A DNA stretch of 64,000 bases from Aggregatimonas sangjinii. GTDB lineage: Bacteria > Bacteroidota > Bacteroidia > Flavobacteriales > Flavobacteriaceae. Positions 53,143-64,000 of this stretch are shown here, one piece after another. A program made the translations under genes and the position numbers. The notes beneath the pieces were generated by a model, which saw only the letters and a list, made by a program, of their open reading frames with translations, was not told the DNA's origin and did no database searches. The stretch covers positions 631,001 through 695,000 of the forward strand of contig NZ_CP040710.1 in NCBI RefSeq assembly GCF_005943945.1, in the 5' to 3' direction. Every line of letters begins with the position of its first letter. The stretch's first letter is position 1.

Positions 53143-53400
53143 ATTTTTCATTTACATACTTCATGAGATAGTGCTATTAAAAGGGTTCATTTTCGGTCTT
53201 ATACCTTATTTAAGGGCCGAAAGGGCCTTTCTAAATGAAGGATATCCGCCTCCGATATACTAATATCCCACTTGGAAATCGATGTGCAGAAGGGCTATTT
53301 TGGGATTGGGATATCAATTTTTAGGTCTGGTGTAACGGTTACCGATGTTGGCAACAGTTTTTTTCCGTTCTGCTACCTTTCTACTGTAAAATATTTATTT

Positions 53401-53925
53401 TTATAATTTTTCAATACTGTTTATCGTAACTCCAATAAAGCAATCATCCGCACAACCGTTTTCCACATAACCACAAGTCGAAATCATTCCATTGTTTTTC
53501 GTTTCGAAGTATATTTTAGCATTCTCCCTCTTCTTTAACCATTCTCTTTGGGCTTTATCATATATTTCGTCTAATGTCAGAGCATCAGCACCCACAAATT
53601 CGTGAGTTCCTATTTCCGCTTCATTTTCAGTCCATTCCAATTCTTCTTCCGTAACGTTTTCGGCTAAACCTTCGGTAACGGTATACTTGAAATGTCTACC
53701 AATCAGTTTTCCATTCGATACGGTTAAAGTCGTTTCCCACGAAAAGCCAACCCAAGACCCTCCGACAACTATATATTTGTAGGAATTATTGGTCGATTCT
53801 TTAAAATCCAACCAAGCTTTACGACTATCCTCGAAGTCGTTTTGATATTCTGAATCATCTTTTTCACAAGATGATGATAAGCCTGCAATTAGCAATAAAG
53901 CTATAAAATAGAATTTGCCTTTCAT
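53401..53925 (-). CDS. Lipoprotein of unknown function
   Basis: 174 aa from the ATG at 53925 (MKGKFYFIALLL). A longer reading would run into the repeat at 53996. The lipobox SSSC ends at Cys20, followed by an acidic linker. The mature region carries DFKESTNNSYKYIVVGGSWVG and ends with a Cys-rich CGYVENGCADDCFIGV stretch that could form two disulfides. No family recognised. First gene of the accessory island, on the same strand as most of its genes. Confidence 0.65.
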   Translation of the reverse strand: MKGKFYFIALLLIAGLSSSCEKDDSEYQNDFEDSRKAWLDFKESTNNSYKYIVVGGSWVGFSWETTLTVSNGKLIGRHFKYTVTEGLAENVTEEELEWTENEAEIGTHEFVGADALTLDEIYDKAQREWLKKRENAKIYFETKNNGMISTCGYVENGCADDCFIGVTINSIEKL

Positions 53926-53995
53926 TTTCTTATGTATATCAGTTAATTGTATCATAGATGGATTTTTTCTATTTGGTTGCGTCCAAATTGTTGCC

Positions 53996-54041
53996 AACGC
54001 CGCGCTATCCTCCAAAGGCGGACTACACATAGCGCTGCGTT
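53996..54041. repeat. Palindromic island repeat, 'GCAGCGCTAT' family, copy 1
   Basis: AACGCCGCGCTAT (53996-54008) and ATAGCGCTGCGTT (54029-54041) are inverted copies with one mismatch; the loop CCTCCAAAGGCGG is itself nearly self-complementary. Related copies at 54740, 55377 and 57667 carry the block CTATCCTCCAAAGGC. This copy separates the lipoprotein gene from the antitoxin gene. Confidence 0.75.
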
Positions 54042-54055
54042 GTGGTGCGTTTTTT

Positions 54056-54340
54056 TTATACCGATAACGGTTTTACGCTGATCTGTCCTCCCACTGCTTT
54101 CAGCACTTTCATTATTGTCCCGAACTGTGGTTTGGCACCGTCCGACAATGCCTTGTAAAGGCTCGGTCGGCTCATTCCGGTCTCCTCGGCTATTTTGGTC
54201 ATTCCGATCGCCTTAGCGATATGGCCGATGGCGACCACAAGGTCCGAGCTGTCGCCTTCTTCAAGTGTCGTGTTCAGGTATTCCGCTATCATTTCATTGC
54301 TGTCCAAATAGTCCGCTATGTCGAATTTTGTCGTTGTCAT
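54056..54340 (-). CDS. HTH antitoxin of a RelE/HigB-type toxin-antitoxin pair
   Basis: 94 aa. LVVAIGHIAKAIGMTKIAEE then GMSRPSLYKALSDG is a Cro/C1-type helix-turn-helix, and PQFGTIMKVLKAVGG closes it; this is the pattern of the 'addiction module antidote' family that pairs with HigB-like killers. It would bind the toxin and repress the operon. It begins 1 bp after the stop of the broken toxin gene, the toxin-first order usual for this family. The reading frame is intact. Confidence 0.85.
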   Translation of the reverse strand: MTTTKFDIADYLDSNEMIAEYLNTTLEEGDSSDLVVAIGHIAKAIGMTKIAEETGMSRPSLYKALSDGAKPQFGTIMKVLKAVGGQISVKPLSV

Positions 54341-54341
54341 A

Positions 54342-54644
54342 TCATTCGTCTTTGATTCCGTTCCAGATTTTCTTCGCTTTTTTGATGTCCTCTTTTTGGG
54401 TCGATTTGGTTCCTCCGATCAGAAGTATCACGATTTGGCTTTCCGTCTCCTTGAAATAGACCCTGTAGCCTTTCGCATAATTGATCCGCATTTCGTGGAT
54501 TCCGTTACCGACAGATTTACAGTCGCCAAGGTGTCCGCTGTCCTCGAGTTTCTGTAATCGGAAAAGTATCTTGGCCTTCGCCCTTAGGTCCCTGATTTTT
54601 TAGAACCATCTGTCGAATTCGGTGGTCTTTTTTATAATGGCCAT
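54342..54644 (-). pseudogene. RelE/HigB-type toxin gene with premature stop
   Basis: Translation from the ATG at 54644 gives M-A-I-I-K-K-T-T-E-F-D-R-W-F and then TAA at 54602-54600 (codon 15). The same frame continues open for 85 more codons to TGA at 54344-54342, with family motifs KAKILFRLQKLEDSGHLGDC, GNGIHEMRINYAKGYRVYF and ILLIGGTKSTQKEDIKKAKK. Total length (100 aa) is normal for the family. So one nonsense codon breaks an otherwise complete toxin. No internal start could give an active protein. Read-through or a sequencing error are the alternatives. Confidence 0.88.
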
Positions 54645-54739
54645 CTAAAGTGTATCCGTTCAGATACAAATTTAATTGATTTCAAGGAATTCCAAAAGAA
54701 AAGTTTCAATTAATCTGGTGGTCGATTTAAATGCACCAC

Positions 54740-54799
54740 AACGCAGCGCTATCCTCCAAAGGCATACAAGTTGTGTAGCCTGTCTGCCGGCAGACAGGC
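54740..54799. repeat. Island repeat copy 2 with perfect 22 bp palindrome
   Basis: AACGCAGCGCTAT at 54740-54752 starts the block shared with other copies (CTATCCTCCAAAGGC...CAAGTTGTGTAGCCTG). It ends in GCCTGTCTGCC/GGCAGACAGGC at 54778-54799, a perfect palindrome. The two IS110 copies sit inside palindromes of this kind, so this one can be read as an unoccupied target. Confidence 0.75.
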
Positions 54800-54870
54800 C
54801 TGTCTGCCAGCAGGTATACCTACCAAACGGTAGGCAGGTCCGCGCAATATTATGGAAATATAGTGAAATC
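54795..54870. repeat. 76 bp exact repeat, copy 1
   Basis: These 76 bp recur exactly at 56736-56811 in the same orientation. They include a CCTACC/GGTAGG hairpin and the start of the long hairpin element described at 54840-54930. Confidence 0.85.
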
Positions 54871-54930
54871 TTTTTTTGGATTTCGACGCCTGCCCGCCTC
54901 TGGAGGGGTATTGGGAATAAGATTGTGTGG
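54840..54930. repeat. Long hairpin element, copy 1
   Basis: CCGCGCAAT (54840-54848) faces ATTGTGTGG (54922-54930), pairing through two G-U contacts. An inner GAAATC/GATTTC stem lies between. Homologous to 61604-61674 and 63196-63263, where the arms differ yet still pair. An open reading frame across 54672-54990 is made only of these repeats and is not a gene. Confidence 0.65.
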
Positions 54931-55011
54931 TCCTTCCGAGCGCAGCGAACACATGAATACCTCATTGAAAATAAACAGGGCATGAACTAAATTACATACC
55001 CGCCTGCCAGC

Positions 55012-55046
55012 AATGTAGCCTTCCCTAAAAAGAAGAAGGCTACATT
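55012..55046. repeat. 12 bp perfect hairpin at the end of a small gene
   Basis: AATGTAGCCTTC (55012-55023) and GAAGGCTACATT (55035-55046) are perfect inverted copies; the right arm overlaps the stop codon of the minus-strand membrane-protein gene. It may act as its transcript end, though no T-run follows. Confidence 0.6.
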
Positions 55047-55302
55047 AAATATTGAGTAAATGACAAATTAAGATAAACAGACTTACTGCTAAAAATAAAA
55101 TATTTAGAGTGATATTTTTTTTATCAGACTTCTTAATCATATTGCTGATTATTAGAATTATAAAGAAAAGCGAATATGCAAAAGAAATTTTTGGTGAGTA
55201 TTTATAATAAAAATTATAACAATCATTGGTAAATAAACAAATTAACATTGCTACTATATAGATAGCGAAAGATATTTTTATGATGACTATTGTTTTTTTC
55301 AT
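55045..55302 (-). CDS. Small membrane protein, unknown function
   Basis: 85 aa, very AT-rich, three predicted helices (IIKISFAIYIVAMLICLF, ISFAYSLFFIILIISNMI, ITLNILFLAVSLFILICHL). No family is recognised. Placed between two island repeats, on the same strand as neighbouring island genes. Base composition differs sharply from the IS110 gene next to it. Confidence 0.6.
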   Translation of the reverse strand: MKKTIVIIKISFAIYIVAMLICLFTNDCYNFYYKYSPKISFAYSLFFIILIISNMIKKSDKKNITLNILFLAVSLFILICHLLNI

Positions 55303-55376
55303 AAACCATAAATTAAAACTGTAATTTGAGTAAACTGGTTGGACTTTTCTGTCTGGTTTTTTTAAATGTGTGGCAC

Positions 55377-55421
55377 CGCAGCGCTATCCTCCAAAGGCGG
55401 ACAAGTTGTGTAGCCTGCCTG
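55377..55421. repeat. Island repeat copy 3, broken by IS110
   Basis: CGCAGCGCTAT (55377-55387), the block CCTCCAAAGGCGGACAAG and TTGTGTAGCCTG match copies 2 and 4. The terminal palindrome survives only as CCTGCCTG (55414-55421); its other half is at 56728-56740, on the far side of the IS110 element. Confidence 0.7.
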
Positions 55422-55463
55422 TATCCTATGGTTAAAACAAATATTCTTCATAAATTTTTTCTA

Positions 55464-56459
55464 TCATGAGATGAATTTCATGGTATCGACATACGGTGTG
55501 CCGCGCCTTACCACTGCGAACGCCCTGGCCAGTACCTTGTTCCTTATGATGTTCATTGTGGACATTTTGTCCTTTCCCTCACCGATCCTTTTTTCATAGT
55601 ATCTTTTCATTTCGTGGCTGTACTGTACGGCGGTACATGCGCACATGTTCAACAGCACCTTTCCTTCCTTGTTGGCCATCCTGTTGACCTTCGTCCTTCC
55701 CTTGAGACTGGTCCCGGAGGTATTGGGGAAGGGTGCGATCCCGACGTAGGAGGCGAACTTCCTCCAGCTTGCGAACCACTTGAACCCATTGGTGTACACG
55801 ATAAGGAACCTTGCCGTGACCTTTCCGATGCCCTTGACGGTGAGCAATAGGGTGAACATCCCATTGAGCTTCGGGTCCCGTGCGATAAGCCCGTCGATAT
55901 CGCTCTCCAACGCCGCAATCTCTTTGTCCAGGCAGTCGATGATGGCCTTTTGACAGCTGTACAGGCGTTGGTGCGGGTCTCCGCCCAATACCCTTCGCTG
56001 CTCACCCAGGTTCGCGATATGGCCCGCCCGTTGGGCGACCAGTTTCCTGCGCAGGGACATGAGCCTTTTCATGTCCGCCAGTTTCGCATCCGGTCTTTGG
56101 CGCGGTACGAATTCCTCCCTAGTGCGCCATCCGTAAAGGGCTATCCGCTTTGCGTCCGCCCTGTCGTCCTTTCCCCTGGCAATGCCAAGGGAGCGTTTGA
56201 TCTCCAGGCCGGGAACGATACGGTAGGGCAGCCTCGCCGTATCGAGGAACTCTTCGAGCGTGTCGCTATAGAGCCCCGTGTGCTCGAATACGAAAAGAAG
56301 GCCGTCCATGGCCGGGCCAAGGTTCTCATTTGCCCATACGCACATTTCCTTGATGCCATCCACGGTATTGGTGAACCTTTCCGCAACGCCTTTTAAGTGG
56401 ATGTGGGCGTCCAATGTTAATTTACTCACGTCGATACCGATAATTTCCTTGATTTCCAT
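55464..56459 (-). CDS. IS110-family transposase (DEDD recombinase)
   Basis: 331 aa. N-terminal RuvC-like DEDD domain: Asp10 in GIDVSK, Glu59 in FEHTG, Asp99 and Asp102 in KDDRADAKR. A central coiled region (about 125-190) precedes the C-terminal Transposase_20 domain: TVKGIGKVTA at about 207-216 and FASYVGIAPFPNTSG at 235-249, where Ser248 is the likely catalytic serine. It performs RNA-guided recombination in the related IS621 system. GC and codon use are higher than in the adjacent island genes. Confidence 0.93.
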   Translation of the reverse strand: MEIKEIIGIDVSKLTLDAHIHLKGVAERFTNTVDGIKEMCVWANENLGPAMDGLLFVFEHTGLYSDTLEEFLDTARLPYRIVPGLEIKRSLGIARGKDDRADAKRIALYGWRTREEFVPRQRPDAKLADMKRLMSLRRKLVAQRAGHIANLGEQRRVLGGDPHQRLYSCQKAIIDCLDKEIAALESDIDGLIARDPKLNGMFTLLLTVKGIGKVTARFLIVYTNGFKWFASWRKFASYVGIAPFPNTSGTSLKGRTKVNRMANKEGKVLLNMCACTAVQYSHEMKRYYEKRIGEGKDKMSTMNIIRNKVLARAFAVVRRGTPYVDTMKFIS

Positions 56460-56480
56460 AATTTTACCATGTTTGAAAAT

Positions 56481-56613
56481 GGTCGCTTAAACTAAGACCT
56501 TTAAAAGTCGAGGCTGAAATCCTATATGGTTCTGGGCGACCGGTTAGAAGAACGGGGACTGATACAGGCAATAGGTCGTCAACCTTGGCCGACAGAAAGT
56601 TCACCCCGTTCTT
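56481..56613 (-). ncRNA. Candidate IS110 bridge RNA, copy 1
   Basis: Mirror copy of 63404-63536 inside the IS110 leader. Two stem-loops: the outer stem AAGAACGGGG/CCCCGTTCTT encloses a loop with an apical AGGT-TGACG-ACCT hairpin, and the outer stem GGTCGC/GCGACC encloses a second loop. The order and position (5' of the recombinase gene) match the target- and donor-binding loops of IS621. Transcription is not shown by the sequence. Confidence 0.7.
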
Positions 56614-56735
56614 TTTTTATGTTTCAATAAAGTTATGAACATTTATAGGAGTTATGAGTCTCCCCCGGACCCCCTCTTTTCAACACGATCATCATAATAG
56701 ATTTTATCTATAAGGCAAATCTAAAGGCCGGTAGG

Positions 56736-56811
56736 CAGGCCTGTCTGCCAGCAGGTATACCTACCAAACGGTAGGCAGGTCCGCGCAATATTATGGAAAT
56801 ATAGTGAAATC
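56736..56811. repeat. 76 bp exact repeat, copy 2
   Basis: Identical to 54795-54870. It abuts the left end of the IS110 element. The hairpin element that begins here (CCGCGCAATATT) has no right arm, so this copy is truncated. Confidence 0.85.
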
Positions 56812-56862
56812 CTTTTCGGATTTCGACGCGTGACCGTCTCAGGACAGGATCACATTTTATAG

Positions 56863-57000
56863 CAAGTGACCGGGTCTATTATAGCTTATGATCATACAGA
56901 TGCTGGTGAACCCGATAACGGAGTATCACATATAGGAGTGGGGGCAAGTTATATGAAAAGAAAAAAAGGTGGTTTAAGGCAAAAAGAAAATATTGACTAA
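56863..57000 (+). pseudogene. Possible gene fragment
   Basis: An open stretch of 45 codons without a start codon: ...GSIIAYDHTDAGEPDNG, VSHIGVGASYMKRKKGG, ending ENID and TAA. The composition looks protein-like, and the frame is closed upstream by a TAG, which suggests the 3' end of a lost gene. I do not recognise the family. It could also be chance. Confidence 0.3.
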
Positions 57001-57053
57001 CTTTAAAGAACTGGACTAAGGCCTTTCATAGGAGGTTGTGTTGGGTGTAGTTT

Positions 57054-57353
57054 TTATTCCAGGATTTTATTTTCCAAGTCCATCCGTTCGTGCAATATTC
57101 TGGTTACTTCAATCTCATTTTTAGCGGTTTGCCTATAAAATATGATATGTCTGTTAGTTCTTAATCCGAACAAATTTTCCGTAATCCCGTTATAGTTTTT
57201 GCCCAAATTCGGATTTTTTGCGATTCTTTTACAATTCGCTAATAACATATCATAATAAGTGTCCGCTTGTTTTTCCGACCACTCTTCAAAAGTATAATTC
57301 CATATATGAGCTAAATCTTCAACTGCCTTTTTAGTCAAATTGTATTTAGCCAT
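57054..57353 (-). CDS. parE: ParE/RelE-superfamily toxin
   Basis: 99 aa. MAKYNLTKKAVEDLAHIWNY is the usual ParE N-terminus, with RIAKNPNLGKNYNGI, then FGLRTNRHIIFYRQ and VTRILHERMDLENKI, which close the RelE-fold. ParE toxins poison gyrase, while RelE types cut mRNA; ParD as partner favours the former. It overlaps the antitoxin gene by 8 bp. The gene is intact, unlike the toxin at 54.3 kb. Confidence 0.88.
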   Translation of the reverse strand: MAKYNLTKKAVEDLAHIWNYTFEEWSEKQADTYYDMLLANCKRIAKNPNLGKNYNGITENLFGLRTNRHIIFYRQTAKNEIEVTRILHERMDLENKILE

Positions 57354-57597
57354 TCGAACGCTTATTAGCTTTTAGAGATTCCAAATGCTTTTTTGGGTCG
57401 AAATCATGGGCAATTCCGCTTTCTATTCCTTCTTGAATAGCGCTGCGTAGTGCTCTGACCTTGTTTTCCTCTTCCTCTAAAAGCCTTAGTCCAGCACGAA
57501 CTACTTCGCTGACGTTCTTAAACCTTCCTTCCGAAATTCGATTATGGATAAATTGGTCGAAATAATTCCCGAGTGATATTGAAGTGTTTTTACTCAT
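57346..57597 (-). CDS. parD: ParD-like antitoxin
   Basis: 83 aa ribbon-helix-helix protein: SISLGNYFDQFIHNRISEGR and NVSEVVRAGLRLLEEEENK are the ParD/CopG signature; the disordered C-terminus (HDFDPKKHLESLKANKRSN) would wrap the toxin. It is first in the operon and would repress it. A perfect palindrome lies in the leader (57621-57635). Confidence 0.9.
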   Translation of the reverse strand: MSKNTSISLGNYFDQFIHNRISEGRFKNVSEVVRAGLRLLEEEENKVRALRSAIQEGIESGIAHDFDPKKHLESLKANKRSNG

Positions 57598-57620
57598 TTT
57601 AGTATGATTTTACTCAAATA

Positions 57621-57635
57621 TACCAAAAATTGGTA
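57621..57635. promoter_or_regulatory. Candidate ParD operator
   Basis: TACCAA-AAA-TTGGTA is a perfect 15 bp palindrome, 24 bp before the parD ATG. RHH antitoxins bind such short palindromes in their own promoters. The assignment is by position. Confidence 0.5.
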
Positions 57636-57666
57636 AAAATGGCAAATTTTGCAAATTACACCGAAG

Positions 57667-57721
57667 GCAGCGCTATCCTCCAAAGGCGAACAAGTTGTGT
57701 AGCCTGTCTGCCGGCAGGCAG
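57667..57721. repeat. Island repeat copy 4 with unoccupied palindrome
   Basis: GCAGCGCTATCCTCCAAAGG (57667-57686) and TTGTGTAGCCTG match copies 2 and 3. It ends in CCTGTCTGCCGGCAGGCAG (57703-57721), which is the uninterrupted form of the palindrome split by IS110 elsewhere. Confidence 0.75.
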
Positions 57722-57776
57722 TTAGAGTTTGATATGTCTTGCCTCCGATGAGCACAGCGAGAGGAAGGCACACGGT

Positions 57777-57970
57777 CCGTCGTGGCGTTGTGGGCAGGAA
57801 TACCTAACGCCTACGCCCTTATGTGATCTGTCCCCGACCCTTCGGGGCTGCGATGATGTAGCATTTCCCTCTTGCATCCGACGAACCTTTTTTGGTGAGA
57901 GGAATGCACTCGGGAATCGAGGTACGAGATGTAGCCTATAGGGTCGCCACAGGCGAATGCTACATCATCG
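57777..57970. repeat. MITE-like repeat with 15 bp inverted repeats, copy 1
   Basis: Shared with 61715-61864: CCGTCGTGGCGTTGT, GAATACCTA, GCCTACGCCCTTATGTGATC, then CGATGATGTAGCATT (57851-57865) and its perfect inverse AATGCTACATCATCG (57956-57970). A third GATGTAGC unit inside allows alternative pairing. Copy 1 has extra DNA between the arms. No gene inside; a reading frame at 57729-57941 is an artefact of this repeat. Confidence 0.75.
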
Positions 57971-57975
57971 GATCG

Positions 57976-58230
57976 GCTAAGCGTAGTGCGGGGGCAAGGA
58001 AACTTTTCGTTTCCGTCTGCGCACGAAGCTAAAGCTTTTGGTTTAGTTTTATTTTTTCTTGTCCAAAGCTAAATCGATAAGATTTAGCGACATTATAAAT
58101 ATACACAGACCTTTCGATTTTGCCCTAAAGTCCGCATTACGTTTAGGCATTATTACCCAACGTTTTTTTTCGTCCGAGTTAGCTTTTTCGTACGATTTAT
58201 AAGTCCATCAGCATAACAGTTGCGTTTGAG
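57976..58230. repeat. Cassette-flanking repeat, copy 1 (R1)
   Basis: About 255 bp shared with R2 (59072-59247 plus 60972-61054): GCTAAGCGTAGTGCGG, CTGCGCACGAAGCTAAAGC, TAAGATTTAGCGAC, GCATTACGTTTAGGCATT, TTACCCAACGTTTTTT, and AAGTCCATCA...AACAGTTGCGTTTGAGT. It lies directly downstream (3') of the DUF2199 gene unit. Confidence 0.8.
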
Positions 58231-58254
58231 TAAGTAGTCCATTCGTATGATGTT

Positions 58255-58791
58255 TTACTCAATGTTTTTTAGCATTTCATCTATTCGATTTTCAGCTTCT
58301 TTTTTTGATATTCCAGCATAGTAATCCTTTACAAAAGGATGGTCGAAATCTTGATGAGGAAAGATTTCAGGTCTATCATTTCCAGTTTTAGTCATAACAT
58401 CACATGGAATTGAAGAAGTGTCTCCATATTGGGCGATATTGCTACATAACCAACCAAAATAACCAGTTTCGTGATTCGAATTATCATAGTTTTCTTGATA
58501 ATCTAGATAGCTTTTTTCACTTAAAGAAACCCAAAGTCCATATTCTAGAGTTTCGCAAGCATCATATAGTTTTTGAGTAAGCGTTACTCTTATAAAGCGG
58601 TCAATTTGGTCTTCGTGATGAATTTCGCAAAAGTCCGTATCTAATTTTCCGATTTCCGATTTTTGTTTCTCTGAAAGGTAATGATAATTGGACGGTGCTT
58701 TAAAAGCTAATGCTGGCCATTCCGAATGTGCCTGACCACATTGAGAGCATTTAAATTCGGTTGTTTTATTTTTTTTCTTTCTCCAGAACAT
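58255..58791 (-). CDS. DUF2199 domain protein
   Basis: 178 aa. CSQCGQAHSEWPALAFKAP near the N-terminus (CxxC), a conserved HYLSEKQ, FCEIHHEDQIDRFIRV stretch, LEYGLWVSLSEKSY and GYFGWLCSNIAQYGDT are the DUF2199 pattern. This family occurs in many accessory regions; its role is unknown. It starts at the stop of the small membrane gene upstream (no gap), forming a two-gene unit inside the R1/R2 repeats. Confidence 0.82.
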   Translation of the reverse strand: MFWRKKKNKTTEFKCSQCGQAHSEWPALAFKAPSNYHYLSEKQKSEIGKLDTDFCEIHHEDQIDRFIRVTLTQKLYDACETLEYGLWVSLSEKSYLDYQENYDNSNHETGYFGWLCSNIAQYGDTSSIPCDVMTKTGNDRPEIFPHQDFDHPFVKDYYAGISKKEAENRIDEMLKNIE

Positions 58792-59031
58792 TTATTCACT
58801 TGGTATTGTTACAAAACCTGTCCAAATCATAAGTATATAAATTAAACACATTATTGATGCTCCTTTAAAAAATAGAGTGAAAACTTTAAAATTGATTGGT
58901 GCTTTTTCGACTAAACCTGTTTTATTTCTGGTATGGAAATCTTTTAGTTTTCCAGTAATTATTGGACCAGTTATCCTAAAAAAGAAGAACCCGAAAAGGA
59001 AAAATATTGAAAGTCCAATTTTAAATTTCAA
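58792..59031 (-). CDS. Small membrane protein paired with the DUF2199 gene
   Basis: 79 aa with two helices (IGLSIFFLFGFFFFRIT at the N-terminus, FFKGASIMCLIYILMIWTGF near the C-terminus). The middle is basic (KLKDFHTRNK). No family is recognised. The ATG at 59031 is 20 bp from the conserved flank AAATGTTGGGTAACG (59052-59066, plus strand). Cotranscribed with the DUF2199 gene. Confidence 0.6.
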   Translation of the reverse strand: MKFKIGLSIFFLFGFFFFRITGPIITGKLKDFHTRNKTGLVEKAPINFKVFTLFFKGASIMCLIYILMIWTGFVTIPSE

Positions 59032-59071
59032 ATTCTATGTTTTTTTGTTCTAAATGTTGGGTAACGGCTGA

Positions 59072-59247
59072 GCTAAGCGTAGTGCGGTAGTAAGGAAATT
59101 TTTCGTTTCCGACTGCGCACGAAGCTAAAGCTTTTGGTTTTGCTTTTTCTTTTTTTGTCCAAAGCTAAATCCATAAGATTTAGCGACTTCATAAATATAC
59201 ACAGACCATTCGGTTTTGCCCTAAACTCCGCATTACGTTTAGGCATT
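59072..59247. repeat. Cassette-flanking repeat, copy 2 (R2), first part
   Basis: Homologous to 57976-58151. It ends in GGCATT at 59242-59247, the point where the IS1182-type element is inserted; the second part resumes at 60972. Confidence 0.8.
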
Positions 59248-59321
59248 GTGCCTGTTGCACAAGTTAGCGAAAAAGTCCGTTTTGATCATTGCCGATCCGA
59301 TGATCGATCGTAACTTTATGT

Positions 59322-60890
59322 ATGCAGGGAAAAAAGGATTACCAAGAAAAGCTGTTCGCCCATTTCCAGTTGAGCGAACGGATTCCGAAGGACAATTTCT
59401 ACAGGCGTTTGAAAAGCGCCATCGATTTGGATTTCCTCTACAAACTGACCAAGGGATATTATGGCGATAGCGGCCAGAAGAGCATCGACCCGGTCGTGTT
59501 CTTCAAACTATGTCTGGTGTGCTATCTGGAGAACATCATCAGCGACCGCAAGCTTATCGACCATTGTTCGATGCGCTTGGACATCCTCTATTTTATCGGT
59601 TACGGTATCGACGAGGAACTTCCCTGGCACAGTACGATAAGCAGGACGCGGCAGCTGTTCCCGGAGTGCGTTTTCGAGGAGGTCTTCACAAGGGTATTGG
59701 CCCTGTGCGTTGAAAAAGGAATGGTCGGCGGCCACACCCAGGCCATCGACTCGGCACCGGTGAAGGCCAATGCGAGCATGGATACCCTGGAGCTGAAGGT
59801 GCCCGAAGAGGAACTGGACGAACACCTAAGAAAGGTACGTGCTCTCAGTTCGATGGACAGGGAGGAGCCGCACAGAAAGTCCAAGAACGACAGGTCCGAC
59901 AAGGGACAGCGCAGCGTGACCGCCAACAAGAAGGAACTCGATGCGGTAAAGGGTCGCACCAAGAAGTGGGCCAAGGACCAGGACCAACGTCCCGGTGCGG
60001 GAAACAAAGGTTCGAAATACACAAGTAACAAAACGCATTACAGTCCCACGGACCCCGATGCCAGGATAAGCGTCAAGCCGGGCAAGGCGCGCAAGCTGAA
60101 CTACCTCTCACAACTGAGCGTGGATACGGCACACCATGTCATAACGGATATCAGGGCCTACCATGCCGATGGGAAGGACAACCAACAGCTTCCCGATATC
60201 GTCAAGAGACTTAAGAAACGGTTGTGGGAGCAAGGACTTGTATGGGAGAACTGCGTGGCGGACACCGGCTACAGTAGCGGGGAGAACTACCGTTTTCTAG
60301 AAGAAAGGAACCTTAAAAGTTTCATTCCACCGCACGGTACGTATAAGGGCGGCCCCGATGGTTTTGTGTACGTTGAAGAACATGACCATTATATATGCCC
60401 CCGGGGCAAGGTGATCCCTTTTACCAAAGTTTTCCTTGACAGTCGCACCAGGACAAAGAAGAAGGAGTACCGTGCGCGGAAACATGTCTGCCTGGGCTGC
60501 CCCATACGGGAACGGTGCCTGGGCAAGTCGGCACAGGAGAAGAAGTTCAGCGTTACCTATTACCGTGATGAGTATGAAAGGAACATAGCAAGGGTCGAAA
60601 GCCCGCAGGGCAGGCACATGAAGGGCAAGCGGCAAAGTACGGTCGAGCCCGTGTTCGGCACGCTCACACAGTTCATGGGGCTACGAAAGATAAATACCAT
60701 CGGCCTCGCACAGGCGAACAAAGGCATGCATCTGTCCGCTATGGCCTACAACTTGAAAAAGTACCTTAAGTTCGAACAAAAACGCTCGAAAAGCGGGGCG
60801 GGCCAACTCACTTTGGCCACTTTGTCGAAAAGCACCCTTGGGTTCCTCTTCGGGGCTCCGGGCGAGCATCCGAAATTTAACCTTCACTAA
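59322..60890 (+). CDS. IS1182-family transposase
   Basis: 522 aa DDE transposase. An N-terminal helical domain (DFLYKLTKGYYGDSGQKSID, PVVFFKLCLVCYLE, ELPWHSTISRTRQLFPE) precedes the first catalytic Asp in AIDSAPVKANAS; a charged insertion (about 165-240) separates it from the second Asp (VADTGYSSGENYRFLEE). A Cys cluster (HYICPRGK, CLGCPIRERCLG) is typical of the family. The final Glu lies in STVEPVFGTLTQFMGLR. The frame is intact and the ends are good, so the element may be active. Confidence 0.93.
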   Translation: MQGKKDYQEKLFAHFQLSERIPKDNFYRRLKSAIDLDFLYKLTKGYYGDSGQKSIDPVVFFKLCLVCYLENIISDRKLIDHCSMRLDILYFIGYGIDEELPWHSTISRTRQLFPECVFEEVFTRVLALCVEKGMVGGHTQAIDSAPVKANASMDTLELKVPEEELDEHLRKVRALSSMDREEPHRKSKNDRSDKGQRSVTANKKELDAVKGRTKKWAKDQDQRPGAGNKGSKYTSNKTHYSPTDPDARISVKPGKARKLNYLSQLSVDTAHHVITDIRAYHADGKDNQQLPDIVKRLKKRLWEQGLVWENCVADTGYSSGENYRFLEERNLKSFIPPHGTYKGGPDGFVYVEEHDHYICPRGKVIPFTKVFLDSRTRTKKKEYRARKHVCLGCPIRERCLGKSAQEKKFSVTYYRDEYERNIARVESPQGRHMKGKRQSTVEPVFGTLTQFMGLRKINTIGLAQANKGMHLSAMAYNLKKYLKFEQKRSKSGAGQLTLATLSKSTLGFLFGAPGEHPKFNLH

Positions 60891-60906
60891 TGATGGGACA
60901 ATAAAA

Positions 60907-60925
60907 AAGCCCCGAAAAGGGGCTT
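60907..60925 (+). terminator. Hairpin at the 3' end of the IS1182 transposase gene
   Basis: AAGCCCC-GAAAA-GGGGCTT lies 17 bp after the transposase stop, within the element. The T-run downstream is weak on the plus strand, but the minus strand has TTTTTTAT, so it may also block transcription coming in from outside. Confidence 0.65.
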
Positions 60926-60971
60926 ATAATAATCCGTTTTCTTGCTGATCAAGGGCTTGTGCAACGGTTAC

Positions 60972-61054
60972 CATTGTTACCCAACGTTTTTTCCGTCCAA
61001 GTTGGCTTTTCGGCATTTTTGGTAAGTCCATCAACACAACAGTTGCGTTTGAGT
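60972..61054. repeat. Cassette-flanking repeat, copy 2 (R2), second part
   Basis: Homologous to 58148-58230: TTACCCAACGTTTTTT, AAGTCCATCA, then AACAGTTGCGTTTGAGT. It continues R2 after the IS insertion and abuts the 3' end of the next, unrelated gene. Confidence 0.8.
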
Positions 61055-61088
61055 GAACTCCATCTGCGCAATTTTATATAAAAGTTGG

Positions 61089-61568
61089 TTAATCTCTCTT
61101 TTCCATTTTGATTATTATTCCCTCAGTTTCTATTCGCACAGCTATAGAATCTTTTTCAAAACCTTCAGAGTATTTTTTTCGTTTTTGCGGAAAGAATGTT
61201 GGTATTCTTGTGGTACGGAGTGTGAGGTTTTCTTCATTTAGATTTTCAATTGTGTACATTATTCCATAATCATCGAGCATCACACCTAGCTCTTTATTAT
61301 TAGTTACTGAAAACGACTGTGGATGATTGCATAATTGATTCATTTCAGCATCGAATACCTTAAATTGTTTATTTTCAGAAAATTGAAAAACAGTCCCTAA
61401 ATTTAGTTTTCCGCAATGCTTGAAATGTTCAAAAGGAAATATATTAAGCTCTTTAACTTTCCATTCGCCATAAATCTCAGTAGGGATTACATAATTCTGT
61501 GCTACAGCATTTTTTTTAGAACCGCAACTTGTGATAAAAACAATAATAATTGATAATGTTAATCGCAT
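61089..61568 (-). CDS. Lipoprotein of unknown function
   Basis: 159 aa. Signal LTLSIIIVFITSC with lipobox Cys15, then GSKKN. The mature chain looks like a small lipocalin-type barrel (IYGEWKVKELNIFPFEHFKHCG, GTVFQFSENKQFKVFD, NEENLTLRTTRIPTFF), a common build for flavobacterial 'lipocalin-like' lipoproteins. The ATG is 4 bp from the conserved flank AAATGTTGGGTAACG (61573-61587), and the 3' side meets R2. Confidence 0.65.
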   Translation of the reverse strand: MRLTLSIIIVFITSCGSKKNAVAQNYVIPTEIYGEWKVKELNIFPFEHFKHCGKLNLGTVFQFSENKQFKVFDAEMNQLCNHPQSFSVTNNKELGVMLDDYGIMYTIENLNEENLTLRTTRIPTFFPQKRKKYSEGFEKDSIAVRIETEGIIIKMEKRD

Positions 61569-61603
61569 CTGAAAATGTTGGGTAACGCAGCGCTATGTGT
61601 AGT

Positions 61604-61674
61604 CCGCGCAATTCCATGGAAATATAGTGAAATCCTTTTGGGATTTCGACGGTATTGGGAATGGAATTGCGCGG
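61604..61674. repeat. Long hairpin element, copy 2
   Basis: CCGCGCAATTCCAT (61604-61617) and ATGGAATTGCGCGG (61661-61674) are perfect 14 bp inverse copies. An inner GAAATCC/GGATTTC stem (61629-61647) sits inside. Flanked by CGCAGCGCTATGTGTAGTCC on the left and GGTCCAGATTACAT on the right, both shared with 63177-63276. Confidence 0.8.
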
Positions 61675-61714
61675 TCCAGATTACATATAGTGCATGATAT
61701 GTGGCGTTCATGGG

Positions 61715-61864
61715 CCGTCGTGGCGTTGTCGGCGGGAATACCTAGGGCCTACGCCCTTATGTGATCTGTCATAGCGCTGCGATGATGTAGCATTTCCCTA
61801 TGGGCGGGAATCGAGGTACGAGATGTAGCCTATAGGGTCGCCACAGGCGAATGCTACATCATCG
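61715..61864. repeat. MITE-like repeat with 15 bp inverted repeats, copy 2
   Basis: Second, shorter copy of 57777-57970. The perfect arms are CGATGATGTAGCATT (61780-61794) and AATGCTACATCATCG (61850-61864), only 85 bp end to end. ATAGCGCTGCG just before the left arm links it with the GCAGCGCTAT family. Confidence 0.75.
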
Positions 61865-61898
61865 GTCTCGTATAACCGCAGTAGCTGTTTTTTAAAGA

Positions 61899-62675
61899 TT
61901 AATTTTCAGCTTTAGATTGATTATTGTTTTCTGCTTTAACTTCAAGTTTAGAACTAATTCCAGCTATTGCGGTTATACATTGTTGGGCGTTAGTGCTTTC
62001 TTTGTCATTTTCAGATTCTACTTCTCTTAAAGTCATTATGTCAATTTTCTTGCCGTCAGTTTCAATTGTCAGTACTCGACAGTGTTTATTAGCAGGATTG
62101 TCAACTAACGAAACTTCTTCTAATTCCATTTCAGTTATTACTCGGCAACATATCTCTCCATTATACAACTTGCCTTTTAAATGACTACACTTTCCATATT
62201 TTTCATTGCAAATTGAACAATGACTTTTTTTAATTATTCCTCCCGCACTTTGAAAAAAGAGATTTGGAAACAAAAGCTTTTCATAATTTGCTAATCTTTC
62301 TAAATAGCCTATTTCAGATTCAAGTTCAAAAGGATAATTTCTTACTACAGTTCCGTAAGTAACTTGGGCATTAACAAGATTTCCCCAAGCTTCACTCATT
62401 TTATCTTGTTTAATGTTTACCAACATCTGTAGCTCGTATTGCAAGGCTAAAAGAGAATTATCTATACAGTATACTAAATTAGCTTCGTTTTCTAATTTTC
62501 GTTTTTTAAAGTCTTCTTTAAGTTGTGATAGTTCTTGTCTGTAACTTATCAAATTGTCTATTTCATCCTTTTGGATTTCAATTCCGATTGTGATAAATGC
62601 TTTTTTTTGAACCCTTGAAGCAACTTCATTAAATTCTTTAATTAATAAGTTTGGATTTTCTATAAAGACCATCAT
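61899..62675 (-). CDS. Hypothetical protein with Cys/His cluster and VDNPAN motif
   Basis: 258 aa. The N-terminal ~150 residues are helical, with a coiled-coil-like stretch (SYRQELSQLKEDFKKRKLEN). Then a possible metal site, CSICNEKYGKCSHLKGK followed by a CC pair (EICCRVI), and EVSLVDNPANKHCRV, which recalls the 'V-D-x-P-A-N' motif of phage head-maturation proteins. That resemblance is short and may be chance. The C-terminal tail is polar and low-complexity. It overlaps the upstream gene by 4 bp. No function assigned. Confidence 0.6.
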   Translation of the reverse strand: MMVFIENPNLLIKEFNEVASRVQKKAFITIGIEIQKDEIDNLISYRQELSQLKEDFKKRKLENEANLVYCIDNSLLALQYELQMLVNIKQDKMSEAWGNLVNAQVTYGTVVRNYPFELESEIGYLERLANYEKLLFPNLFFQSAGGIIKKSHCSICNEKYGKCSHLKGKLYNGEICCRVITEMELEEVSLVDNPANKHCRVLTIETDGKKIDIMTLREVESENDKESTNAQQCITAIAGISSKLEVKAENNNQSKAEN

Positions 62676-63151
62676 TTCATTGCCTTAATAACCTTTTCTA
62701 AACCTTTCAAACCCTCAACATCTCCTTTGTAATTAATCTTTTTTAATTTACCTTTTGCTTTCGTTTCGATATGAAATTCCACGTGTGCTTTCTTTTTTCC
62801 AACGGTTCCTTTTAGAGCATCGTAAACGTAATTTGATAACACATTCAACGCAACTGGCACAACAGCAGAATTTTCTGTGATAGTAGATAAACTAAAGAAT
62901 ATTGCAGGCAAATAAATATCTGCGTTTTTTCTACTTCTGTATAGTTCAGTGTCACCTCCAAGAACGGATAATTCCAATTCATTTAATTTAAAATGCTTAT
63001 TCAATTCTATCATATTATCCGTAAAAATGAATTCAGCTTTCTTTTCGGCAGTTGACAAATTCTCTGGAAAAAAAGAAATCTTATCAGGTAATGATAAATT
63101 CAATTTTTCAAGTTTGTCCTCAACTTTATATTCCTCTATTGTGTAGCTCAT
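62672..63151 (-). CDS. Hypothetical protein, first gene of a two-gene operon
   Basis: 159 aa without signal peptide. An N-terminal strand-rich part (LSLPDKISFFPENL) leads to a central helix, VVPVALNVLSNYVYDALKG. The C-terminal part is KKKAHVEFHIETKAKGKL followed by KINYKGDVEGLKGLEKVIK. The layout, a hydrophobic helix followed by a basic strand pair and a short helix, resembles adaptor-like components seen next to effector genes, but I cannot name a family. Coupled to the next gene by ATGA overlap. Confidence 0.6.
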   Translation of the reverse strand: MSYTIEEYKVEDKLEKLNLSLPDKISFFPENLSTAEKKAEFIFTDNMIELNKHFKLNELELSVLGGDTELYRSRKNADIYLPAIFFSLSTITENSAVVPVALNVLSNYVYDALKGTVGKKKAHVEFHIETKAKGKLKKINYKGDVEGLKGLEKVIKAMK

Positions 63152-63195
63152 TTGGTTTTTCTTGCATTACGCCCAACGCAGCGCTATGTGTAGTC

Positions 63196-63263
63196 CTGCG
63201 CATTTTGTGGAAATATAGGGAAAACTTTTTCTGTTTTTCCGGTATTGGGAACGAAATGGGCAG
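63196..63263. repeat. Long hairpin element, copy 3
   Basis: CTGCGCATTT (63196-63205) faces AAATGGGCAG (63254-63263), one mismatch, with an inner GGAAAA/TTTTCC stem. Both arms differ from copy 2 (CCGCGCAATT) while pairing is kept. Outer flanks CGCAGCGCTATGTGTAGTCC (63177-63196) and GGTCCAGATTACAT (63263-63276) are identical to copy 2. Confidence 0.75.
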
Positions 63264-63403
63264 GTCCAGATTACATACCTGCCTGCCGGCCTTTAGATTT
63301 GCCTTATAGATAAAATCTATTATGATGATCGTGTTGAAAAGAGGGGGTCCGGGGGAGACTCATAACTCCTATAAATGTTCATAACTTTATTGAAACATAA
63401 AAA

Positions 63404-63536
63404 AAGAACGGGGTGAACTTTCTGTCGGCCAAGGTTGACGACCTATTGCCTGTATCAGTCCCCGTTCTTCTAACCGGTCGCCCAGAACCATATAGGATTT
63501 CAGCCTCGACTTTTAAAGGTCTTAGTTTAAGCGACC
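63404..63536 (+). ncRNA. Candidate IS110 bridge RNA, copy 2
   Basis: Loop 1: the outer stem is 63404-63413 with 63460-63469 and the apical hairpin 63432-63444. The 5' side CTGTCGGCC (63422-63430) resembles the left target/junction CTGCCGGCC. The 3' side TGCCTGTATC (63447-63456) exactly matches the bottom strand of the right junction (55416-55425). Loop 2: the outer stem is 63476-63481 with 63531-63536. AACCATA (63486-63492) equals the element's right-end AACCATA, and TAAAGGTC (63514-63521) is complementary to left-end GGCCTTTA with one G-U. The pairings were found by hand. Confidence 0.7.
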
Positions 63537-63557
63537 ATTTTCAAACATGGTAAAATT

Positions 63558-64000
63558 ATGGAAATCAAGGAAATTATCGGTATCGACGTGAGTAAATTAA
63601 CATTGGACGCCCACATCCACTTAAAAGGCGTTGCGGAAAGGTTCACCAATACCGTGGATGGCATCAAGGAAATGTGCGTATGGGCAAATGAGAACCTTGG
63701 CCCGGCCATGGACGGCCTTCTTTTCGTATTCGAGCACACGGGGCTCTATAGCGACACGCTCGAAGAGTTCCTCGATACGGCGAGGCTGCCCTACCGTATC
63801 GTTCCCGGCCTGGAGATCAAACGCTCCCTTGGCATTGCCAGGGGAAAGGACGACAGGGCGGACGCAAAGCGGATAGCCCTTTACGGATGGCGCACTAGGG
63901 AGGAATTCGTACCGCGCCAAAGACCGGATGCGAAACTGGCGGACATGAAAAGGCTCATGTCCCTGCGCAGGAAACTGGTCGCCCAACGGGCGGGCCATAT
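63558..64000 (+). CDS. IS110-family transposase, N-terminal part (runs off window)
   Basis: The first ~147 codons of a second copy of the transposase at 55464-56459. The DEDD residues Asp10, Glu59, Asp99 and Asp102 are all included, and the sequence appears identical. The ATG at 63558 follows the candidate bridge RNA by 21 bp. The remainder lies beyond position 64000, so intactness is unknown. Confidence 0.92.
   Translation, partial: MEIKEIIGIDVSKLTLDAHIHLKGVAERFTNTVDGIKEMCVWANENLGPAMDGLLFVFEHTGLYSDTLEEFLDTARLPYRIVPGLEIKRSLGIARGKDDRADAKRIALYGWRTREEFVPRQRPDAKLADMKRLMSLRRKLVAQRAGH

Follow-up and report, generated by a model that had tools for sequence, protein, structure and literature searches.

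A probable bridge RNA in the leader of an IS110-group insertion sequence of Aggregatimonas sangjinii

The element and its recombinase

The stretch of DNA analysed here, 64,000 nucleotides and referred to below as the window, is G000:C1:631001-695000 of the genome of A. sangjinii (G000), a single contig of 4.72 Mb. An IS110-group insertion sequence, 1306 bp long, is present in it as one whole copy and as the opening 710 bp of another. Two further copies are near 3.66 Mb, and all four are identical letter for letter, so this genome displays the spread of the element and not its variation. The two leaders inside the window form part of a 728-nt inverted repeat (100% identical).

55421..56726, minus strand: IS110 element copy 1, complete (1306 bp), from inverted-repeat and joined-flank comparison
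63291..64000, plus strand: IS110 element copy 2, first 710 of 1306 bp, continuing beyond the window end, from its joined flanks compared with an uninterrupted paralogous repeat
55464..56459, minus strand: IS110 recombinase gene of copy 1, 331 aa, with PF01548 and PF02371, residues D10, E59, D99 and D102, and an SGTS motif at 248-251
63558..64000, plus strand: IS110 recombinase gene of copy 2, truncated where the window stops

The recombinase matches PF01548 (E 1e-14) and PF02371 (E 3.5e-16). Its acidic residues and SG-S motif align with those of IS621, and both a DEDD RuvC-like set and a Tnp-domain serine are present. Similarity to the IS621 transposase (8wt6) is distant (E 5.9e-17, 64.8 bits), and the ISCro4 transposase (PDB 9t56) is also homologous (E 5.1e-16). 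A recombinase 90% identical occurs in an uncultured Flavobacteriaceae; a scan of named genomes with the protein gave 2 loci, and a plasmid search gave 6 records, each less than 60% identical to it. The left end of the element is long, with 267 bp upstream of the gene, and the right end short, with 43 bp downstream of the stop codon. In the IS1111 group, by contrast, the RNA is in a long right end, whereas the guide RNA proposed below is upstream of the gene.

The surroundings are an integron-like array (53400-63280 of the window and L044:1-10700) of small genes, mostly on the minus strand, with long palindromic repeats beginning AACGCAGCGCTATG. At its edge is a 355-aa tyrosine recombinase (L044:9560-10627) that scores below the integron-integrase cut-off. 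Integron attC was considered as the setting of the target and set aside: the integron-integrase model matched under its cut-off (265 bits) in two pieces that omit positions 180-238, and such sub-cut-off matches appear in 14 of 14 control genomes. Past the window are two 351-aa ORFs (L044:1117-2172 and L044:7640-8695), the first of which is an IS110-family recombinase outside the close relatives found in this genome. An S15-Flavobacteria leader was also detected in the host DNA.

Ends of the element

When the flanks of copy 2 are split at C/CTTTAG and GGATAC/ (a slash marks a boundary) and joined, only 1 letter of 135 sets them apart from a paralogous repeat that stands uninterrupted at G000:700,859. 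This repeat gives the boundaries as CTGCCGGC/element/AGGCAGG and, because it fixes the ends and lacks GGATA, assigns GGATAC to the element. By the same comparison of filled and uninterrupted sites within this genome, insertion is precise, with no target duplication beyond the core. In the relative G144 the site at L136 is uninterrupted and the left junction at L109 filled, with the same letters in both up to the boundary; this second pair sets the left boundary at the same place.

Right ends were compared in 13 close elements (recombinase more than about 45% identical and a right end found near the gene; L074 merged with L054): ten have CATAGAATAC and three, including the present element together with L115 and L116, have CATAGGATAC. 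More distant elements end in TTGGAATAC, or in TTAGAACAC for L062; the end of L063 is altered, and L051 and L075 have no recognisable one. The letters following the terminal C vary between elements, and GRATAC is constant as the closing of relatives that are inserted in other targets. GGATACAGGCAGG occurs in this genome at the four element ends only; elsewhere, it closes a related element of G007 in three copies and is present once in G397, not at such an end. From the joined-flank, target-pattern (see below), right-end and G144 comparisons it follows that the element is 1306 bp long, with crossover at a core whose second base is C.

Target site and core

63283..63290, plus strand: left target and core at copy 2, CTGCCG-GC, from the sequence
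56727..56734, minus strand: left target and core at copy 1, CTACCG-GC, from the sequence
55414..55420, minus strand: right target at copy 1, AGGCAGG, from the sequence

The element copies are inserted in long palindromic repeats between small genes, and the right flank AGGCAGG is common to all four. Written as a degenerate pattern, CYDMCSGCAGGCAGG, the uninterrupted target has 23 matches in this genome (a reversed-pattern control has 0), 15 of them exactly CTGCCGGCAGGCAGG, with overlapping pairs on both strands at 9 places. It is the middle of CCTGCCTGCCGGCAGGCAGG, a near-palindrome, which is why target sites are found on both strands a few letters apart and why both orientations of insertion are possible. 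The four copies make up two head-to-head inverted pairs, at 0.687/0.694 Mb and 3.662/3.664 Mb, with spacings of 6.6 and 2.0 kb. For IS621, 144 of 173 mapped insertions are reported to be in palindromic REP elements (PMC11208160, in the sections available).

On this reading the target has GC as its core and the donor AC, the C alone being common to both. The first core base varies among targets (GC, AC, TC, with TT or AT in a few distant elements), and the second is C in most and T in some distant elements. A CT core shared by target and donor, as in IS621, was not found, the donor core being AC; the available part of PMC11208158 describes CT for IS621 and related orthologues and not as a defining feature of the family.

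The initial annotation proposed a bridge RNA with a GG core, the right target GGATACAGGCAGG (13 nt) and the donor guides AACCATA and TAAAGGTC. GG does stand at both junctions in 4 of 4 copies of this genome, and the string matches are real. GG is nevertheless mistaken for a core because GGATAC is part of the element: GRATAC closes relatives across different targets, the uninterrupted paralog is without GGATA, GGATACAGGCAGG is confined here to element ends while the uninterrupted target is found 23 times, and relatives have GA, TT or AG at the GG position of their left junctions. CYKRCCGGATACAGG, moreover, is without an exact match in this genome (29 matches, all with 1 or 2 mismatches). A bridge RNA so constituted is very improbable, and the core with C as its second base is used in what follows.

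Structure of the leader

63306..63320, plus strand: possible 5′ stem-loop ATAGAT-AAA-ATCTAT, just past the expected transcription start, read from the sequence
63404..63469, plus strand: target-binding stem-loop of the putative bridge RNA, with a covarying stem; model R2 gives 80.9 bits at 63401-63470, this sequence being included in the building of the model
56547..56616, minus strand: target-binding loop of copy 1 (model R2, 80.9 bits)
63422..63429, plus strand: left target guide CTGTCG and core GC, tracking the left flank in 30 + 7 elements
63447..63453, plus strand: right target guide TGCCT and core GT, from the right-guide tracking test
63476..63536, plus strand: donor-binding stem-loop, outer stem GGTCGC / GCGACC, from the comparison of stem arms

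That the leader folds into two large stem-loops, as the initial annotation had it, is weakly supported by energy alone. A 145-nt piece gives the two stem-loops at -38.6 kcal/mol (z -1.73), and 10 of 200 shuffles fold equally well, and the two are not seen together in the minimum-energy fold of the whole 272-nt leader (z -1.56; 16 of 200 shuffles). It is the comparison of relatives that carries the claim. Over 18 aligned rows, 95.4% of cells in the target loop pair, a value as high being reached by 0 of 500 shuffles; 9 of its 17 pairs are changed on both sides (1 of 500 shuffles), its covariation score is reached by 0 of 500, and the count of further pair types stands out less (22 of 500). When each arm of the outer stems was matched with its own partner and with those of other elements (30 elements), the means were 7.73 of 8 against 7.11 for the target stem and 5.77 of 6 against 5.14 for the donor stem (0 of 20,000 permutations each, kinship ignored). 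Given the full alignment A1, RNAalifold recovered the target stem-loop and not the donor stem, an absence that we attribute to misaligned donor arms; the arm test is alignment-free. What the relatives conserve is an RNA with two stem-loops that carry internal loops. It matched no Rfam family, even at E up to 1, and a family-wide search with an earlier model, R1 (its structure string one column off), gave a match in 24 of 397 genomes.

Tracking of the flanks by the target guides

The strings quoted in the initial annotation are all present where it placed them. CTGTCGGCC matches the left junction, CTGCCGGCC, in 8 of 9 letters, and TGCCTGTATC is the exact complement of GATACAGGCA at the right junction. 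The latter 10-nt match is real and yet is not one guide: TGCCT reads the target, GT is the core and ATC matches the element's own right end, so that the right target guide (5 nt), the core and the candidate handshake guide discussed below make up a single run. The claims that the target loop precedes the donor loop, and that left guides have the sequence of the top strand and right guides its complement, both hold. The first loop thus has a left guide for the bottom strand and a right guide for the top strand, both of them covarying with the targets, the right side weakly in one subgroup.

For the left guide, the 8 letters that precede CTTTA were slid along the 5′ half of each target loop and scored at every position (where a left end had several CTTTA candidates, the choice was made by eye from the following letters and the distance to the loop). 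In 30 elements, the present one included, the cognate mean was 7.12 of 8 against 4.43 for non-cognate loops (0 of 100,000 permutations, kinship ignored), and the element's own loop was best or equal best in 23 of 30. The right guide in 28 elements gave 4.59 of 6 against 3.71 (again 0 of 100,000, kinship ignored), with the own fit best or equal best in just 16 of 28. Of the loci without a recognised right end (L051, L063 and L075), L051 and L075 are in the left test only and L063 shares a row with a sister copy, L076, in which that end is present. The right-guide fit is weak, 3 of 6, in L066 and L069 of the subgroup with AACG targets. In a reduced set of 19 elements for the left and 17 for the right, with most members of two shared-target groups dropped, both sides still gave 0 of 100,000.

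A later model search of 395 genomes of the order found a match in 16 and yielded elements not used before. The 25 loci included two copies of the present element (L206, L211), six without a parsable loop (L190, L198, L199, L200, L203, L209) and two without a left end (L195, L196); the other 15 represent seven elements, for which the left side gave 6.94 against 4.73 (2 of 5040 permutations, the true pairing included and kinship ignored). The second permutation to reach the observed value is presumably the swap of G748 and G658, which have the same guide. Failure of the guides to follow the ends of relatives would have told against the proposal, and in these 30 + 7 elements they do follow them. 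Among the copies in this genome, the expected match to the first loop is good in three (7 exact and 1 wobble of 8 in two copies, 6 and 2 in one) and weak in the fourth (G000:3,664,419, TGACCGGC), with 4 exact and 2 wobbles in register.

The tracking bears on two other accounts of the leader. It might be merely a structured 5′ UTR that controls translation of the recombinase, with incidental matches to the flanks; it is directly upstream of the gene and its donor stem-loop ends 21 nt before the start codon, but guides that follow outside flanks over 30 + 7 elements are unexpected of a UTR, and we give this account very little chance, though some translational control in addition to a bridge RNA role is possible. 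Alternatively, the elements could have copied flanking DNA into their leaders, the loops having no part in the choice of target. The direction of cause is not readable from sequence alone, but separate copies share the target letters and not the wider flank, and the polarity of the guides is opposite on the two sides, which leaves a copied flank a negligible probability. According to the portions of PMC11208160 available, altering the guides retargets IS621. We regard it as very probable that the leader encodes a genuine bridge RNA for its IS110 element, as the initial annotation proposed; the recombinase domains, the tracking of flanks by guides and the covarying stems all support this.

Donor loop and candidate handshake guide

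63492..63498, plus strand: left donor guide ATAGGAT, covarying with the right end of the element
63514..63520, plus strand: right donor guide TAAAG and core GT, exact complement of AC/CTTTA, read by eye
63454..63456, plus strand: candidate handshake guide ATC, complementary to the GAT just before the donor core, from alignment A2 with the concept taken from PMC11208158 (seen in part)

Judged from the loop and the revised ends, the donor guides are AUAGGAU on the left and UAAAGGU on the right, the latter an exact complement with no need of G-U pairs. They take the place of AACCATA and TAAAGGTC, whose observed matches are true as strings: AACCATA is present in the second loop and near the right end, and TAAAGGTC pairs with GGCCTTTA with one G-U. 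The left donor guide was compared with the 7 letters before the donor core in 27 elements, with a cognate mean of 6.96 of 7 against 5.84 (0 of 50,000 permutations, kinship ignored). In a rough pattern tally of 28 rows, ends of the forms ATAGGAT, ATAGAAT and TTGGAAT match the loop letters in 22; of the other rows, one has a TTAGAAC end with a TTAGAAT loop, and in the rest an earlier look-alike was taken by the pattern. The second loop thus pairs with the joined ends, by test for its left guide and by eye for its right.

In the 18 rows of alignment A2 the letters after the right-guide core are ATT in 14, ATC in 2, and AGC and ACC in one each. ATC and ATT are able to pair (G-U allowed) with the GAT or AAT that precedes the donor core, and the handshake guide of IS621 is described as pairing likewise (PMC11208158, in the part available); AGC and ACC (G104 and G258) do not fit as a handshake guide.

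A candidate promoter across the joined ends

55438..55441, minus strand: right-end TTTG of copy 1, a candidate for the -33 box of a junction promoter
63294..63301, plus strand: TAGATTTG, matching the Bacteroidota -7 box TANNTTTG, 20 nt past the right-end TTTG once the ends are joined

In 11 of the 13 close elements TTG is exactly 17 nt upstream of the junction, and in 8 it is TTTG, frequencies that 0 of 10,000 shuffles reach for either. From TTG to a TAnnTT[TA]G box in the left end there are 20 nt in 8 of the 13, and 19 in L060; the motif is incomplete in L057 and L061 (box missing) and in L052 and L058 (TTG missing at that place). Counting all 25 junctions, both boxes are matched in at least 11, none of them from the distant group (the L062 row not counted). 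The Bacteroidetes consensus is given as TTTG/TANNTTTG, its -33 part being weak in Flavobacterium johnsoniae (PMC6847099, portions available), and a promoter spanning the joined ends is described for IS621 in the sections of PMC11208160 to hand. Joining of the ends would form a promoter motif of Bacteroidota type here, and its use as a promoter may be inferred.

Proposed mechanism and known systems

In our judgement the 1306-bp element is, with high probability, an autonomous insertion sequence of the IS110 group that transposes in circular form under the guidance of its own bridge RNA. Excision would join the right end (..TTTG-TTTTAACCATAGGATAC) to the left end (CTTTAGATTTG..), giving, under the revised ends, the circle junction ATAGGATAC/CTTTAG and a promoter reading into the leader. 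The transcript would fold into target and donor loops and bind the DEDD/Ser recombinase. Its target loop would read CTGCCG-GC-AGGCA, the middle of an abundant palindromic intergenic repeat, with the left guide CUGUCG-GC on the bottom strand and the right guide UGCCU-GU on the top strand, and its donor loop ATAGGAT-AC-CTTTA, the joined ends of the element. Recombination at the two-base core would then insert the element with no duplication beyond the shared C, and after strand exchange TGCCT-GT-ATC could pair with the new right junction in the manner of IS621 handshake pairing.

As far as the available parts of PMC11208160 and PMC11208158 describe IS621, the two systems share an RNA in a long left end, a target loop followed by a donor loop, split guides of the same polarity, a two-base core with a conserved second base, a repetitive palindromic target, a homologous DEDD/Ser recombinase, and a promoter across the joined ends, here known as a motif alone. 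Unlike IS621, with its CT core and sigma-70 junction promoter, the present element has NC in the target and AC in the donor and a Bacteroidota-type promoter motif; its donor (ATAGGAT-AC-CTTTA) and target (CTGCCGGCAGGCA) are its own, and its recombinase is only distantly similar. The seekRNA of ISEc21, in what is accessible of PMC11187229, is likewise from an upstream non-coding region, with a bottom-strand match followed by a top-strand one, a circle with a junction promoter and no target duplication; its target and ends are different, and it is short (74 nt) with marked target matches.

By comparison, then, the logic of a bridge RNA is also seen in Bacteroidota, in a lineage far removed from that of IS621, where the core differs and the junction promoter motif is appropriate to the host. 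The natural guide-target sets from this one order number 37 for the left side, 28 of them with the right side too, so core preference, handshake guides and guide length become testable by comparison.

Relatives with two target loops

In three relatives, from three genera, with recombinases 58-60% identical (G104, G258 and G144) the leader is about 100 bp longer and has a second target hairpin before the usual one; this is 3 of 31 recombinase loci, one of them weakly. Model R2, which was built without these hairpins, gives 43.8 bits (E 1e-7) for that of G104 and 41.8 bits (3e-7) for that of G258, and for G144 21.1 bits (E 0.036), no better than opposite-strand noise at 22. Compared with shuffled sequences, folding is better in G104 (z -3.32) and G258 (z -2.75) and not in G144 (z -0.59). 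The 8-bp stem is GGTAGGTG/CACCTACC, GATAGGGC/GCCCTATC and GGTGGGGC/GCCCTACC (one G-U), with paired base changes that preserve it.

Each of the two loops has its own left and right guides, and it is in the first base of the target that the right guides disagree. That of the first loop reads TCTAT(G): an intact copy lies 192-193 bp inside the right end of each of the three elements, G144 has it as its right flank, and it also stands uninterrupted at another place in G144. In G104 and G258 the second loop reads ACTAT, which is what actually flanks both elements on the right. With guide registers set by hand, the fit of the left guides to the outer flanks is good to fair, and at the internal sites both left guides match poorly, with 5 to 7 of 10 exact. 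The right ends are 3.8, 3.1 and 1.9 kb from the left ends, and these elements may be composite remnants. In G104 and G258 the interval from the recombinase to the right end (L117:8529-10507, L118:8707-9888) has, by eye, metal-responsive regulator-like and mercury-transport-like genes, with a cation-efflux-like gene in addition in G104.

We put forward tentatively, as a possibility on the doubtful side of even, that this branch has a bridge RNA with two target loops, one RNA serving two variants of a repeat target and perhaps an internal site beside cargo; the poor fit of both left guides to the internal sites tells against this last part. If functional, it would be a natural multi-target bridge RNA. 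In the open-licence PubMed Central literature, as far as its available text goes, and in a word search of PMC11208160, nothing on a pair of target loops was found. Searches of viral contigs with the G104 recombinase, of plasmids with the G104 leader and of viral contigs with the single target-loop pattern gave no match. A second target-loop match (38.3 bits) is also present at L063:3464-3534, about 1 kb past the L063 element, whose right end is atypical (TTGGACGGTTTTG).

A segment of the left end around GAGGGGGTCCGGGGGAGACT (63341-63360 of the window) is nearly constant in several IS110 relatives; its occurrences include L097 and L098 and the genomes G212, G100, G104, G144 and G258. Within one mismatch the 20-mer is found in 7 of 299 family genomes, its reversed control having 0 among the matches listed. 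A segment of 47-59 nt at 85-89% is also, by eye, beside an apparently different transposase family (L097). It is readable either as a short peptide (..LKRGGPGETHN) or as a DNA or RNA motif.
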